The notes under the pieces are model-generated. The model was not told the origin of the DNA. It did not search any database and saw only the letters and a program-made list of their open reading frames with translations. Made by a program: the position numbers and the translations under genes. A DNA stretch of 64,000 bases, from NCBI RefSeq assembly GCF_901538355.1, contig NZ_LR593887.1:3944920-4008919 (forward strand). The letters are read 5' to 3'. This document shows, piece after piece, positions 2,913-23,985 of the stretch. Position 1 is the stretch's first letter, and every line of letters begins with the position of its first letter. This DNA is from Tuwongella immobilis (GTDB lineage Bacteria > Planctomycetota > Planctomycetia > Gemmatales > Gemmataceae).

Positions 2913-5900
2913 GTGCAGTTGTCGATCGAGTGTCCCCAATGCAAGCGAGTGGTGGAATACACCAAGGAAGTTCCGAATTTCTGCTCGCATTGCGGTCAGC
3001 GATTGTCCCAATCGAATCCCCCGGCGTCGCGTCGTTCCAACGCCAATCCCACCACCGAAGAATATGATGGGGCACTGCTCCCCTTCTCCAACGATGATTC
3101 CGCCAATCGGACCAACGAACACATCCCCAACGCCATCGGCAATTATCGCCTGTTAAGTCTGCTCGGTTCGGGCGGCATGGGACGGGTCTACTTGGCAGAA
3201 GCGACGGATACCGGACAACGGGTTGCCGTCAAGCTGTTGGCATCGCAGCAAGGCAGTTCCGGCAACTCGGTCGAGCGATTCCGCCAAGAAGGTCAACTCG
3301 CCAGCCAGATTTCGCACCCACGTTGCGTGTTCGTCTACGGTGCCGACACCGACCAGGGGCGACCGTACATTGTCATGGAGTTAATGCCGGGCAATACGCT
3401 CAAAGATTTGGTCGAATCGCGTGGCCCGCTCCCCTATCTGGAAGCCGTTCAGCTCATTCTCGATGTCATCGACGGACTTCAAGAAGCGCATCGCTTGGGC
3501 GTGATTCACCGGGATGTCAAACCATCGAACTGTTTTTTGATGCCCGATGGCCGCGTGAAAATCGGCGACTTCGGCCTCTCCAAGTCGCTCTCGTCGACCC
3601 GCGATCTGACTCAGACGGGAGCGTTTCTGGGGACCGTGCTTTACGCCTCGCCCGAACAGATTCGCGGTCAAGATGTCAACTACGCTTCCGATGTCTACTC
3701 GCTTTGTGCAACACTGTTTTACCTCGTCACCGGCCGCGCGCCATTTGAGCAGGAAAACGTCACCGCCGCGCTCGCACGGATCATCTCCGAAGAAGCGCCG
3801 CGCGTGCGGAGCATCCGCCCCGATCTCCCGCGCTCGCTCGACGCAATCCTCGCCCACGGATTGGAGCGCGAACACGCCTGGCGCATCCAAACGCTGGAAG
3901 AACTGCGGTCGGCACTGATCACGCTGGTGCCCAACCAACTCAGTTTCGGCGGCCTGGGCATTCGCGTGATGGCCTACGTCGTCGATTTCATGCTCGTGCG
4001 ATTCCTTCTGGCGTTCCTGTATTCCTGGCTGGTGACGACGGCATTCGATTCAACCGGTCGCTTCGCACGGAACACCGAAACGCTGTTGTTGCCGATCTAC
4101 TTCATTGTCCTGGAAGGACTTTGGGGCGCATCGCTGGGGAAACGCTTGTTTCGGCTGCGGGTCTGCCAGGCGGGCACCACCGAACCACCGGGCATCGAGC
4201 GGACAATCATCCGAACGGTCGTCTTTGGCATCCTAATTATCCTCACATTCTCACAAATCGGCACGCTCATCAGCTCGCTGGATTCCGACGGCGTCACCGG
4301 CCAACTGTGGCGAAGCCTGTTTATCTTTCTCGCCGGGCTAGTCGTGCTGATTGTCCCCATGCGACGCTCGAATGATTATCGCGGCTTGCATGAATGGGCA
4401 AGCGGTACTTGCGTGATGCAGCTCCCCTCGCGACGCCCGCCGATGCGCTATCGCAGCCGACTCCCCAATCGCCTCGATTCGCTGCTGCCGTTGGGGCCAG
4501 AACTCCCCAAATCGATTGGGCCATACACCATTCGAGCCGCAAGCGGAATCGGGCCGAACGGCGAACGGGTCTTGCTCGGCGAAGATTCGTTGCTCGGCCG
4601 AAATGTGGTCATCCGCCTGCGACCGCTGCCACCGGATGCCCCGACGGATCTGACGCTGGATTTGCAGCAACGGTTACACGTCTCCCGCCCGACTCGGATT
4701 CGCGTGCTGACCATCGGCCAAATTCAGATTGGCCTGCAAACGATGCGGTGGGAAGCCTATGTCGCTCCGCTCGGGGCACCGCTGCAAGACATTCCCTCGC
4801 CACGACAGTCGTTGAATTGGTCGCAAACTCGACCATTGTTAGAACAACTCACCGAAGAATTACTTGCCGCGCAAGCGGATCAGACCTTGCCCGCAACCCT
4901 AAGCCTGGCACAAGTTTGGGTTCAACCGGAAGGACAAGTTCAACTCCTCGATTTTGCGATTCCGCCCAGTCTGGAATCGGCGGGTAACCACCCACCCAGC
5001 GGCACTCCAATCGCCCTCCTGCAACAGGCGAGTGTGCTCTGTCTGGAAGGGGCGATTCCCGCCGACCTCCCGGCCCGTGCCCGACAATCGACGGCGATCC
5101 ACGCCCCCGTCCCGCGCCATGTCGAAACCATGCTGCGGGAACTGTTCGGTTCCAAACCGAACGACGAATCACTCGCACGATGGAATCAAAGTCTGGAGAC
5201 GACCCGGCCGCTTCCCGAACGGGTCACCAGTCTCGGTCGAATCGCACAGCTCGCGTTCCAAGGCATGTTCCTGATCCCCGGCGTGTTGCTCATGTGCCTC
5301 ATCAGCGGCCTGTTCGGGCTGTTGCGCGAAGCCCCGTTGTTGCTGCGCGTCTCCGAATCCCGCATGCTGTTGGCGCTCGAAGAACTCGCCCCGACGCCCA
5401 ATCAACCCGACACCGAACTCAGCGAGGAAGAGTTGCTTTGGCTGCGACAATTGGAAGAGGATCTGGAAACGCTGTTGGAATCGCACAAGCAACGGCTCAA
5501 CTTTGTCGAACGGGTGATGGTTCTGGAAGTGCTGAAATCCAGCAATCAAGTTGGTGATGCAACGATTCCCATGGAAGTGATCGCCCAGGCGAAGAAAGAC
5601 CTGGCCACGTCGCGGATTCCGGAACTAATTCTGATTCCCGAATTAACGCCGTTGTTTCCACAACTCGCCAGCCAATCGATGATGATTGTCGCCGCCGTGC
5701 CCCTGCTTTGGGCATTACTGGCGTGGTGTCTGCGCGGCGGCATCTCGTTCCAACTCATGAGCTATCATTGGGTCACCTGGGATGGTCGTCCCGCCCCCCG
5801 CCGATTTCTGGCCCTGCGGGTACTCCTCACTTGGTTGCCCATGACCGTGTTTCTGTGTGCCAGTATCGCCGTCAGCACCATGGAAACAGAAACCACTGCC

Positions 5901-6023
5901 TTGCGAACTGTGCTCTGGTTTTGCGGAGTTGCCACTGCTCCCTTGTACATCCTGACAGTCATCTGGCGACCAAACCGCTCTCCGATTGATCGGATGTTGA
6001 AAATTTGTCTCGTCCCGAATTGA
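2913..6023 (+). CDS. Ser/Thr kinase with zinc ribbon, RDD membrane domain, pseudokinase and second membrane region
   Basis: This 1036-residue membrane-anchored Hanks-type kinase starts at GTG 2913 with GGAGAG just upstream. Residues 7-27 form a zinc ribbon (CPQC...CSHC). The kinase domain spans about 78-340: G-loop GSGGMGRVY (85-93), Lys107, HRD 199-201 in HRDVKPSN, DFG 219-221, and YASPEQ. An RDD-type membrane domain follows (about 345-500). Residues ~520-760 again resemble a kinase (GIGPNGERVLLGED, LLDFAIPP), but the VAVK Lys is Arg (VVIRLRPL), no HRD is present and DFG reads DFA, so this is a pseudokinase. The C-terminal part holds further membrane segments, a coiled-coil-like acidic stretch (SEEELLWLRQLEEDLETLLE) and an RDD-like tail. 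The substrate is unknown; it is likely a signalling receptor. Confidence 0.9.
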   Translation: MQLSIECPQCKRVVEYTKEVPNFCSHCGQRLSQSNPPASRRSNANPTTEEYDGALLPFSNDDSANRTNEHIPNAIGNYRLLSLLGSGGMGRVYLAEATDTGQRVAVKLLASQQGSSGNSVERFRQEGQLASQISHPRCVFVYGADTDQGRPYIVMELMPGNTLKDLVESRGPLPYLEAVQLILDVIDGLQEAHRLGVIHRDVKPSNCFLMPDGRVKIGDFGLSKSLSSTRDLTQTGAFLGTVLYASPEQIRGQDVNYASDVYSLCATLFYLVTGRAPFEQENVTAALARIISEEAPRVRSIRPDLPRSLDAILAHGLEREHAWRIQTLEELRSALITLVPNQLSFGGLGIRVMAYVVDFMLVRFLLAFLYSWLVTTAFDSTGRFARNTETLLLPIYFIVLEGLWGASLGKRLFRLRVCQAGTTEPPGIERTIIRTVVFGILIILTFSQIGTLISSLDSDGVTGQLWRSLFIFLAGLVVLIVPMRRSNDYRGLHEWASGTCVMQLPSRRPPMRYRSRLPNRLDSLLPLGPELPKSIGPYTIRAASGIGPNGERVLLGEDSLLGRNVVIRLRPLPPDAPTDLTLDLQQRLHVSRPTRIRVLTIGQIQIGLQTMRWEAYVAPLGAPLQDIPSPRQSLNWSQTRPLLEQLTEELLAAQADQTLPATLSLAQVWVQPEGQVQLLDFAIPPSLESAGNHPPSGTPIALLQQASVLCLEGAIPADLPARARQSTAIHAPVPRHVETMLRELFGSKPNDESLARWNQSLETTRPLPERVTSLGRIAQLAFQGMFLIPGVLLMCLISGLFGLLREAPLLLRVSESRMLLALEELAPTPNQPDTELSEEELLWLRQLEEDLETLLESHKQRLNFVERVMVLEVLKSSNQVGDATIPMEVIAQAKKDLATSRIPELILIPELTPLFPQLASQSMMIVAAVPLLWALLAWCLRGGISFQLMSYHWVTWDGRPAPRRFLALRVLLTWLPMTVFLCASIAVSTMETETTALRTVLWFCGVATAPLYILTVIWRPNRSPIDRMLKICLVPN

Positions 6024-6089
6024 TTTTCCCGCAATTGGCACGGAAAATCGACCAAATCGGATAAATTGGGTTGGGATCGCAGGATTCGC

Positions 6090-6118
6090 TTGCATGCGGT
6101 TTCCCGTTAGGATATGAT
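6090..6118 (+). promoter_or_regulatory. Sigma-70-like promoter for the gene at 6213
   Basis: TTGCAT at 6090-6095, a 17-base spacer and TATGAT at 6113-6118. The elements sit about 95 bases before the ATG at 6213, in a 180-base gap after the kinase gene. Confidence 0.5.
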
Positions 6119-6212
6119 GAAGGTGGATATTCCGTCGTCCGATAACTACTGCTAGTTCTCGCCGCGTACGGTTTGGCCCACTCTGGCTACTCTCCCTTGC
6201 AAGGTGTCGGAG

Positions 6213-6683
6213 ATGGATAATTTCGGTTTCTATCTCGATGCTCGTGGTGACTCGGGTTGCCGCGGAGGGGATGATGTGTCGCTCATTGAGCGACTCAGCG
6301 TTTACGCCGACTGTGAGCAGGAAGTTCAACGCTACAAATGGATCGAAAGCGAAAAAGCCGGTCACGATCTCGGTGAAGTCGCAATCCGTCGCTGGGTAAA
6401 AGAACATTGGTGGGGATATCTCCGAGCCCGCTGGCTGGAACATCTCCAAGGACGCCGCTTCTGGGTCGAACTCGACCGCGGTGATTTTGGCCTCCTCCAA
6501 CGCGAATTCCACGACGACTCGCTTCTCCTCGATCGAATCCTCGATCGCCTCAAAGACGGTCAGGAAAACCTCGACATCATCCTCTGGGCGCACGCCTGGA
6601 ACATCCCCATCGATTCCGTTCTCTCGATTCTCGAAGCCCTCGATATCAACAGTCGGCGACTCGCCTACCGCTTTGATGCCTAA
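6213..6683 (+). CDS. Small acidic protein of unknown function
   Basis: This 156-residue soluble protein is not recognised. It has no signal peptide or membrane segment. It is rich in Trp, Arg and Asp (IRRWVKEHWWGYLRARWLEH near residues 60-80), and its second half is probably helical (LLLDRILDRLKDGQENLDII). The ATG at 6213 is preferred over an in-frame GTG at 6204, because AAGG at 6201-6204 spaces well to the ATG. It has its own upstream promoter-like sequence, and the next gene is convergent. Codon use resembles the flanks. Function cannot be assigned. Confidence 0.65.
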   Translation: MDNFGFYLDARGDSGCRGGDDVSLIERLSVYADCEQEVQRYKWIESEKAGHDLGEVAIRRWVKEHWWGYLRARWLEHLQGRRFWVELDRGDFGLLQREFHDDSLLLDRILDRLKDGQENLDIILWAHAWNIPIDSVLSILEALDINSRRLAYRFDA

Positions 6684-22064: not shown

Positions 22065-23831
22065 ATGTCGGACGATTTTCTCGATCGGCTGCCACGCGAT
22101 GCGGGCCATCCGCGAATCGGCTCAGTGATTCTGGGCCGCGAAATCGGCCGTGGTGCCATGGGAGCGGTCTTCAGCGGTTGGGACTGCGAAGCCGCCCGCC
22201 CCGTCGCGGTCAAATTCCTGCTCAATTCGCAGCATGCCTCGCCCGATCGCATCCATCGCTTTCGTCGCGAAGGCCAACTCCTCGCGCTGCTCAACGACCC
22301 ATCACTCATCGAATTATTCGATCACGGATTCGCGCATGATGTCTACTATCTGATCATGGAGTGGGTTCCCGGTCGCGGGTTGGATCATATCGTTGGCCGC
22401 GTCGGACCGATGTTGGAGCATGAAGTCGTCACCATTCTGCGCGATGTTGGCCAGGCACTACTGGTGCTGTCCACGCATGGAATTGTCCACCGCGATATCA
22501 AGCCATCGAACTTGCTGCTGCGCTCGCAAGATGGTCGAATTAAGATTGCCGATCTTGGCATCGCCAAATCGATGGAGCGCATGGATTCGCTGGAGACGGT
22601 CGGCATTCTCGGCACCCCGGCCTTCATGAGCCCCGAACAGATCCGCGAGCCGGGCACCGTCAGCCTCGCATCGGACCTGTTTTCCCTGGGCATGACCGCG
22701 TATTTTCTGCTAACTCGGCAAACGCCGTTTGTCGGCAAAACCGCATACGAAACGATGCAAAAAGTCTGCAGCGATGCCCTGCCCCATCCGCGAAAATTCG
22801 GAATCTCCATCAGCGATTCGTTATGGGAGACGCTGGTTGCCCTCACCGAAAAGTCGCTGGAGCAACGCATTCAACAATCGGAGCGATTATTCGAACGATT
22901 GCCGACCGTGTCGATGCCCTTTCGCAGCACGTTGCTGGATGCCGCTCGACCGAGTTTCGAGCCAAGCATGCCCGACTTGAGCAGTCGCGTGGGGCTGCGG
23001 CTGCCGACGCTCAGCGATCGCGGTGAGACGGACGCCTCGTTTGCAACTTCGGATCTGGGCACCGCGCACCTGGTCCCGCCCGAATCGGCGATTCGCTCGC
23101 TGTTGTTCTGCCAATGTTTGCAGAATGATTTCATCGCGCCGGAAGATTGTGTGTCGCCCACAGCCACGGAATGGACCAACGCCTCACTCACGCTCGATTC
23201 CACGATGCGTCCGCTTCCCAATCGGCTGCATGTGGGTTGGCAAGAAGCCACGCGGCTGGTCGGTGAGGTGCCCGCTCAGGGACCGCTGGTGTCGGCGGTG
23301 TCCCAATGTGCCGAGGCGGAACACGTCGGCATGCTGTTCATCCGCGATTGGCACGATGCGAGCGACCCGAAACAACACGCCGAAATGGAGTTCTTCGGGC
23401 CACACTGTCTGATGGGTACCTGGGGTGCTCGCTTCATCGACGTGTTGGAAGCCTATTCACGGGATCGTCGCCGAACGGCGGTGATCGATTCCACCGGCAT
23501 CAACGATTGCGCCGATACGCCGATTCTGGATCTCAGCCGACAGTGGATTGCCCCCGAGCGCCGCGCGACGGTCCCAGTCGGCGTCATTGGCGTTTGGACG
23601 AACGTCAAGATTCATTATTTGCTGTACGATTTGAAGACTCGCGGCGGATTTCACAATCTCGCCACCTGCTCCGCGCTCGTCGCTTCTCCGGACCAGCGAG
23701 CGCATCTCGAAGCCCTGCGACACTTTGCGTCAATTCTGAATGTCAAAGTGTTCGACCGAATCGACGACTTCCTTCAATTCCTGGGCGTCAACGCGAGCGT
23801 CGGCCAAACCAGCATCATGCCCGAAGGTTGA
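22065..23831 (+). CDS. Ser/Thr kinase fused to a degenerate isochorismatase-fold domain
   Basis: This 588-residue protein has an N-terminal Hanks-type kinase (residues ~18-275): G-loop GRGAMGAVF (28-36), Lys50, HRDIKPSN (142-149), DLG in place of DFG (163-165), and GTPAFMSPEQ. A linker of ~60 residues follows. Residues ~342-575 resemble the nicotinamidase/isochorismatase fold: LLFCQCLQNDF, FIRDWHD, FFGPHCLMGTWGA and VIGVWTNVKIHY. In the active enzymes the first motif carries an Asp nucleophile partner and the last a Cys; here these positions are Cys351 and Lys515. The C-terminal domain is therefore probably a ligand-binding or regulatory module. There are no membrane segments. The chosen ATG lacks a strong ribosome binding site. 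Confidence 0.82.
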   Translation: MSDDFLDRLPRDAGHPRIGSVILGREIGRGAMGAVFSGWDCEAARPVAVKFLLNSQHASPDRIHRFRREGQLLALLNDPSLIELFDHGFAHDVYYLIMEWVPGRGLDHIVGRVGPMLEHEVVTILRDVGQALLVLSTHGIVHRDIKPSNLLLRSQDGRIKIADLGIAKSMERMDSLETVGILGTPAFMSPEQIREPGTVSLASDLFSLGMTAYFLLTRQTPFVGKTAYETMQKVCSDALPHPRKFGISISDSLWETLVALTEKSLEQRIQQSERLFERLPTVSMPFRSTLLDAARPSFEPSMPDLSSRVGLRLPTLSDRGETDASFATSDLGTAHLVPPESAIRSLLFCQCLQNDFIAPEDCVSPTATEWTNASLTLDSTMRPLPNRLHVGWQEATRLVGEVPAQGPLVSAVSQCAEAEHVGMLFIRDWHDASDPKQHAEMEFFGPHCLMGTWGARFIDVLEAYSRDRRRTAVIDSTGINDCADTPILDLSRQWIAPERRATVPVGVIGVWTNVKIHYLLYDLKTRGGFHNLATCSALVASPDQRAHLEALRHFASILNVKVFDRIDDFLQFLGVNASVGQTSIMPEG

Positions 23832-23911: not shown

Positions 23912-23985
23912 TACCCCCGACAGGATTCGAACCTGTACTAACGGAATTAGAAGTTCCGTGTGCTGTCCAGTTACACCACGGGGGC
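23912..23985 (-). tRNA. tRNA-Arg(UCU)
   Basis: A full cloverleaf can be drawn on the minus strand. Acceptor GCCCCCG pairs with CGGGGGT (one G-U), the D-stem is GTGT/GCAC, the anticodon stem CGGAA/TTCCG has loop CTTCTAA and anticodon TCT (Arg, AGA), the variable loop is TTAGT, and the T-stem ACAGG/CCTGT has loop TTCGAAT. The discriminator is A, and CCA is not encoded. It starts 13 bases after the thpR stop on the same strand, so it may be processed from the same transcript. Confidence 0.95.

Follow-up and report, generated by a model that had tools for sequence, protein, structure and literature searches.

A Hanks-type kinase of Tuwongella immobilis joined to an isochorismatase-fold domain with a conserved, rewired active site

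The 64,000-nucleotide stretch of the Tuwongella immobilis genome analysed here (contig NZ_LR593887.1, positions 3,944,920 to 4,008,919; hereafter the window) contains a gene whose product joins a Hanks-type Ser/Thr kinase, through a linker, to a domain of the isochorismatase/nicotinamidase fold (Table 1). The original prediction had described the protein as an intact kinase fused to an isochorismatase-fold domain without its catalytic residues. For the kinase part, translation, the PF00069 match and a residue check confirmed the coordinates, the residue numbers and the integrity of the domain: the P-loop, the VAVK lysine and the HRD and DxG motifs of Hanks Ser/Thr kinases are present, and all catalytic residues are in place (K50, E69, H142-R143-D144 and D163 of the DLG motif at 163–165). 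The top NCBIfam match of this part was PknB_PASTA, with 211.6 bits against a cut-off of 450. The maximum mean hydropathy over 19 residues is 1.33, and the protein is therefore without a clear transmembrane segment. The GC content and the GC content at third codon positions (GC3) are uniform across the open reading frame (ORF), and the genome is a single contig, so the fusion is unlike an assembly join. PADLOC also matched the protein; the best 25 of its 34 matches, headed by PD-T4-6, all fell within the kinase part, and a defence role is therefore not claimed. A second Hanks-type kinase match is found in the same window at ~3132-3923 (+), within an open frame of 1047 amino acids (aa).

Table 1. 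Coordinates of the features of the kinase gene and of the adjacent tRNA gene, counted from the first letter of the window
Feature	Position	Strand	Basis
Whole ORF, 588 aa: Hanks Ser/Thr kinase, linker and rewired isochorismatase-fold domain	22065..23831	+	ATG to TGA, uninterrupted frame
Kinase domain, residues 24-267	22134..22865	+	Pfam PF00069 (Pkinase), 5.2e-43
Linker, residues 268-344	22866..23096	+	Outside Pfam matches
Isochorismatase/nicotinamidase-fold domain, residues ~345-575	23097..23789	+	PF00857, AlphaFold model, fold search Z 24
Cys351, column of the catalytic Asp	23115..23117	+	C in 79/80 of wide alignment and 15/15 unselected rows; D in 9/11 outside rows
Insertion of 18 residues (361-378), private to the window row	23145..23198	+	Gap in 79/80 rows
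Family motif N-x-L-H-[VI]-G (386-391)	23220..23237	+	N386, H389, G391 in 80/80; L388 in 78/80
Metal-site positions Asp428, His430, Glu440, His447	23346..23405	+	D428 in 78, H430 in 79, H447 in 80 of 80 rows
Ser476, column of the catalytic Lys	23490..23492	+	S 42, A 32, T 4, C 1, G 1 of 80; K in 9/11 outside rows
Lys515, column of the nucleophilic Cys	23607..23609	+	K in 80/80; C in 10/11 outside rows
tRNA-Arg (anticodon TCT), just downstream of the kinase gene	23912-23985	-	

The fold of the C-terminal domain was supported by both profile and model. The Pfam family PF00857 (Isochorismatase) scored 26.2 bits on the whole protein (cut-off 27) and 29.0 bits on residues 334–588 alone, and a sequence search of the PDB returned weak matches to nicotinamidases (3s2s, E 3.8e-4; 3o94, E 1.4e-3). 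The AlphaFold model of residues 334–588, built with an input alignment of 80 rows (the window protein and 79 relatives), had a pLDDT of 88.6 and a pTM of 0.87. Its top Foldseek E-value was 1.6e-11, and it aligned with the nicotinamidases 3o94, 3s2s and 6a8l with a Z-score of 24.0 and an rmsd of 1.8–2.0 over 179–185 residues. The PF00857 score of the domain alone, above the cut-off, and the match of the model to nicotinamidases place the domain in the isochorismatase-fold superfamily, as had been proposed. Structure searches, named in the original prediction as one of two tests that could overturn it, kept the domain in the nicotinamidase fold and rule out another fold.

All three residues of the nicotinamidase triad Asp/Lys/Cys are replaced in this domain. 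The original prediction had reported Cys351 and Lys515 at the positions of the catalytic Asp and Cys, and both were confirmed by alignment with non-family rows; the remaining residue of the triad, Lys, which was absent from its list, is also replaced (Ser476). The control consisted of ten rows with E <1 to the family profile and a length <340, together with a gene at locus L121, other PF00857 loci being dropped. In these 11 isochorismatase-type rows, column 351 holds Asp in nine, Glu in one and a gap in one; column 476 holds Lys in nine, Arg in one and Ala in one; and column 515 holds Cys in ten. The row that fails in all three columns, L133, is misaligned and perhaps in the wrong frame. Because rows outside the family carry D/K/C there, the three columns are the true catalytic columns, and a usable D/K/C set in the window domain, for which an alignment check had been proposed, is ruled out: the aligned columns read C/S/K.

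The relatives against which these replacements can be judged come from two samples. When 392 genomes sampled from the phylum were searched by plain similarity, 19 had a match, namely the own genome, 14 family members (loci L032–L045) and four weak, distant matches (L046–L049), of which L046–L048 are ordinary D...C isochorismatases when read by eye. A scan of named genomes gave 113 relatives, the best 80 of which were kept (L050–L129); their phyla include Planctomycetota, Spirochaetota, Myxococcota, Bacteroidota, Pseudomonadota, Acidobacteriota, Nitrospinota, Verrucomicrobiota and Chloroflexota, among others. The wide alignment holds the window protein and 79 of these 80 loci (L116, a truncated gene, was dropped). 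A further alignment (A5) holds 73 of the 80, without L077, L087, L096, L098, L114, L121 and L125, which were truncated, broken, short or divergent. Since the patterns of the wide-set scan contained the Cys or the Lys, the counts of 79/80 and 80/80 at columns 351 and 515 are partly selected; the 15 of 15 rows (the window protein and the 14 members) come from the search that used no such patterns, although its ten fused members, whose contigs have the same lengths as those of ten loci of the pattern scan, are taken to be these loci. In the wide alignment, column 351 is Ser instead of Cys in L105 (match 6001-6642), as read from its N-terminus.

The family has thus exchanged the triad Asp/Lys/Cys as a set for Cys/(Ser or Ala)/Lys, and the window protein carries its marks: Cys in the Asp column, Lys in the Cys column and the motif N-x-L-H-[VI]-G. 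All 80 rows have Asn386, His389, Gly391, Glu394, Arg397, Asp481 and Tyr521. The metal-binding fingerprint of nicotinamidases has been given as DXH ... E/S/H ... PXH (PMC3581539). The window protein reads D428-W-H430, E440 and P446-H447, which at the level of sequence corresponds to this fingerprint; at position 440, 78 of the 80 rows have His and two have Glu, the window protein being one with Glu. The description of the domain as simply lacking its catalytic residues therefore does not hold, since the replacements are near-invariant and the metal-ligand positions are kept. For the same two reasons the site appears to be a conserved, rewired one that may bind or even react, and decay of a dead enzyme is rejected on the near-invariance of the replacements in the family.

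The usual partner of the domain is also a kinase, of the APH fold. In all 80 named loci the frame of the domain continues into a TCAD9-like region (in L096 for the first 56 residues, followed by a stop). The in-house TCAD9 profile was built from these same proteins, and the Pfam scan serves as the independent check: TCAD9 (PF19974) was found in 73 of the 73 regions scanned, APH in 64 and Pkinase in one, at 9.5e-4. A model of TCAD9 (pLDDT 93.9) matched APH-fold kinases, with structural matches to a lexapeptide dehydratase complex chain (Z 17.1), methylthioribose kinase (Z ~15), maltokinase and aminoglycoside kinases, and of the 73 ORFs with both ends closed, 69 carry HGDLNxxN together with IDF/IDY. 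In 51 of these 73, which are all 51 of the long forms, the C-terminal part holds the DSP-type phosphatase motif C-x-[GA]-G-[LI]-G-R, and a Pfam CDKN3 match confirms the phosphatase in L039 and L040. L077, L087 and L096 are long forms with the frame broken inside TCAD9; the next ORFs hold the remainder and the phosphatase motif. Three of the 19 unbroken short forms (L095, L120 and L121) have a separate, adjacent phosphatase gene, identified by Pfam in L120 and L121. The suggestion in the original prediction that no kinase with such a partner had been described thus does not quite hold; the Hanks type of the kinase and the reversed order are what is unusual. At four loci (L060, L076, L103 and L128) the family gene is closely followed on the same strand by a gene for an aldehyde dehydrogenase, which is GapN-like by eye and has a Pfam Aldedh match in L103.

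The window protein is a variant met once here, with a Hanks kinase in place of TCAD9 and the order of the parts reversed. TCAD9 gave no match in the window protein, which does not have the isochorismatase-like + TCAD9 architecture, and none above cut-off in its own genome. A search for the same fusion in relatives had been proposed: the kinase part matched none of the 80 named ORFs with phmmer, and the domain was matched in three of 95 genomes of the own taxonomic family, which are the own genome and two matches at E 6e-4, and in the same three genomes of the class sample (3/397). The domain shares 34–47% identity with family members. In a tree, which is a quick one with long branches, it is placed inside the family, within a starred group of 12 rows that includes planctomycetes, on a long branch of 1.22.

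This isolated occurrence, the long branch and the private insertion would be expected if the window protein were a recent chance fusion of a Hanks kinase and a transferred family domain, without a selected joint function. The frame is intact, however, GC3 is even, the kinase motifs are all kept and the invariant pocket residues have been retained despite the long branch, and we consider a chance fusion the least probable of the explanations weighed here, and an improbable one. The neighbouring genes encode a 2-oxoacid dehydrogenase E2-like protein, a methyltransferase (PF02390), the tRNA-Arg, a LigT/2'-5' RNA ligase-like protein and two PfkB proteins, and do not point to an operon. A promoter scan at the gene found one candidate where 0.8 were expected, which is no better than chance, and four neighbours showed no synteny with the 29 kinase loci L002–L030, whose flanks are short. 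There was no sign of a phage or plasmid origin, and no tblastn match in phages, plasmids or viral contigs.

The gene neighbourhoods of relatives point to a possible ligand class. NAD-metabolism genes were found in the flanks of at least seven of the 80 loci (L064, L081, L082, L089, L095, L112 and L121), which is a lower bound because the representatives for BLAST were picked by eye and many loci are on short contigs. A rough chance estimate is <1 of the 80 loci for a given gene, assuming one to two genes per genome and ~7 neighbours per locus, and made without matched control loci. Examples checked with Pfam are NAMPT in L112 and NrtR in L064; L121 has PncB and NadE, and L095 has genes of the KptA, macro, PARG and ADP-ribosylglycohydrolase families. 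An SPFH/Band-7 gene is paired in five loci (L064, L081, L089, L112 and L121) with a divergent NAD-kinase-like gene, which is NAD kinase 2 by profile (5.7e-13; the L112 copy has no Pfam match) and in L089 is the sole NAD-type neighbour found. In L121, from Pleionea mediterranea, one strand carries an ordinary PF00857 D/K/C gene, PncB, NadE, the SPFH and NAD-kinase-like pair (3158-5103), a DSP phosphatase and the family gene. The seven loci occupy three parts of the tree, from Bacteroidota, gammaproteobacteria and Spirochaetota.

Two of the four stand-alone planctomycete loci taken with wider flanks, L170 and L171, both from one genus, are near NrtR and NAPRTase genes; L171 is also near NadE, and L170 near an ordinary PF00857 gene (D, K and C by eye). 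No NAD genes were seen by eye in the other two, L169 and L172. With an ordinary D/K/C gene nearby in L121 and L170, the rewired copy is not the sole nicotinamidase-type gene there, and a simple stand-in for PncA is disfavoured at these loci. The proximity of some relatives to NrtR, NAMPT/PncB, NadE, NAD-kinase-like and ordinary PncA-type genes lends indirect support to the nicotinamide-type ligand guessed in the original prediction.

Further genes accompany these stand-alone members. In the NAD-salvage neighbourhood at L171:2005-8348, a ThiF/E1-like gene (Pfam 2.2e-14) is beside the stand-alone member, two ORFs are JAB- and E2-like by eye (no Pfam match), and an HSP70-like gene was recognized by eye, the L170 counterpart of which matches HSP70 at 3.4e-79. 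By its gene content, the L171 group may be a ubiquitin-like conjugation system. At L172:3671-4081 (-), the stand-alone family gene of genome G333 is directly 3' of an ORF that is kinase-like by eye.

We tentatively favour the reading in which the window protein is a soluble Hanks kinase governed by a C-terminal domain that binds a nicotinamide-type or NAD metabolite, and in which the family acts as a metabolite-controlled phosphorylation switch; it is the best placed of the explanations, and still an uncertain one. The Ser/Thr kinase, predicted to be soluble and probably active, would be controlled by the C-terminal domain. That domain would bind a small molecule, of nicotinamide type or otherwise derived from NAD, by means of a metal and the new Cys/Lys pocket, ordinary nicotinamidase turnover not being expected from it, and occupancy by the ligand would alter the output of the kinase. 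In relatives, the domain together with an APH-fold kinase, and often a DSP phosphatase, would form a metabolite-controlled phosphorylation/dephosphorylation switch, into which the window version would have brought a Hanks kinase. Retention of the metal-site residues, conservation of the pocket and the NAD genes near relatives suggest a nicotinamide-type or other NAD-derived ligand; that the domain is normally joined to a kinase, and frequently to a phosphatase as well, suggests that it controls phosphorylation; and the Hanks Ser/Thr kinase of the window points to signalling rather than metabolite conversion.

Several observations weigh against this reading. The Hanks fusion is a single case, and none of the five neighbouring window ORFs that were scanned is an NAD gene. 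No neighbour in 73 of the 80 named loci was matched by the NAD representatives. In 16 of the 19 unbroken short forms no adjacent ORF shows the phosphatase motif. Among the 14 members from the plain search, four (L042–L045, planctomycete) stand alone without a fused kinase, and the tie to the kinase is therefore not absolute. The likeness of TCAD9 to small-molecule kinases implies that the family may act on metabolites and not in signalling. Finally, in four of 12 host genomes (G751, G754, G755 and G756, completeness not stated) PF00857 finds only the family gene, so the rewired domain could be an enzyme there.

The last two points also speak for the main rival, in which the domain is an enzyme: Cys/Ser/Lys and the metal would form a new catalytic centre for an NAD-related compound, while the kinase, and in relatives the phosphatase, would act on the same metabolite or control the activity. 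The near-invariance of Cys351 and Lys515, the kept metal positions and the NAD-salvage and ADP-ribose genes nearby are in line with this proposal, as is the resemblance of TCAD9 to kinases such as methylthioribose kinase. Column 476, however, is Ala in 32 of the 80 rows, the partner in the window is a protein kinase, more in keeping with signalling, and an ordinary D/K/C gene is close to the family gene in L121 and L170. We know of no precedent in the isochorismatase fold for Cys at the Asp position together with Lys at the Cys position. New catalysis at the Cys/Lys/metal site is thus doubtful, and the least unlikely of the rivals, followed by a scaffold and then by a chance fusion.

A related and more speculative proposal, which we regard as unlikely, is that the changes of Asp to Cys and Cys to Lys beside the kept metal site have made a new reactive centre, either a catalyst for an NAD-derived molecule or a lysine-cysteine redox switch of the NOS type, that in bacteria of many phyla would tie the NAD or redox state directly to the kinase/phosphatase pair, and in this planctomycete to the Hanks kinase. 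Lysine-cysteine NOS switches are known from other proteins.

Alternatively, the domain could be a structural pseudoenzyme that binds no small molecule and serves as a dimerisation or docking platform through which the kinase meets a partner protein. Pseudoenzyme domains often act as scaffolds, and AAA_3 or bpMoxR genes adjoin some family loci, MoxR/AAA proteins being builders of protein complexes (AAA_3 was found in nine of the 85 neighbours scanned with Pfam, hand-picked from 157 co-directional ones). The former active-site and metal positions are, however, among the most conserved columns of the family, and a scaffold without a ligand is a somewhat weaker candidate than new catalysis.

The domain represents a genuine and conserved variation on the isochorismatase fold, its kinase partner being unusual, and the family is of more interest than the single window protein. 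Few cases are known of small-molecule switching of bacterial Hanks kinases inside the cell. A domain of nicotinamidase shape joined to a kinase hints at a switch that couples NAD supply to phosphorylation, and under our favoured reading of metabolite-controlled phosphorylation the wider family would connect NAD metabolism with phosphorylation, across many phyla, in a way not yet characterised. The presumed regulatory domain stems from a well-studied enzyme fold, and its ligand class can be guessed from the genes near some relatives; for these reasons, and because the decisive residues are two near-invariant positions, the idea is testable in a few assays.

No account of the family was found in the searchable literature (subscription papers and supplements were outside the search). 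Work by Burroughs and Aravind from 2023 on the rhodanese-phosphatase superfamily may describe part of it. The word 'isochorismatase' does not occur in the main texts of PMC7159879, PMC8195603 (Kaur et al. 2021) and PMC9503650 (Iyer et al. 2022), nor in a survey of planctomycete Ser/Thr kinase architectures (PMC11032199). A figure legend in PMC10910872 associates TCAD9 with vWA-MoxR-VMAP. With the MoxR-vWA ternary conflict systems, as presented in the main text of Kaur et al. 2020 (PMC7159879), the family shares the AAA_3/bpMoxR genes beside some of its loci; the five flanking ORFs scanned in the window include no MoxR AAA or vWA gene.

When the window domain is compared with the nicotinamidase/pyrazinamidase PncA, the fold (Z 24), the metal fingerprint DXH ... 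E/H ... PXH and the GVxT before the nucleophile position are common to both, whereas Cys/Ser/Lys in place of Asp/Lys/Cys, the motif N-x-L-H-[VI]-G and the fusion to a kinase set the window domain apart. The kinase part has all the catalytic motifs of Hanks-type Ser/Thr kinases such as PknB; unlike PknB-like kinases, the window protein is without a clear transmembrane segment, and its accessory domain is of the isochorismatase fold and not PASTA, WD40 or TPR. In the domain itself the window protein is like the isochorismatase-like + TCAD9 + DSP phosphatase proteins, for which we know of no published name and which carry the same C/S/K columns. In these proteins an APH-fold TCAD9 follows the domain and a phosphatase is fused in most, whereas in the window protein a Hanks kinase precedes it.

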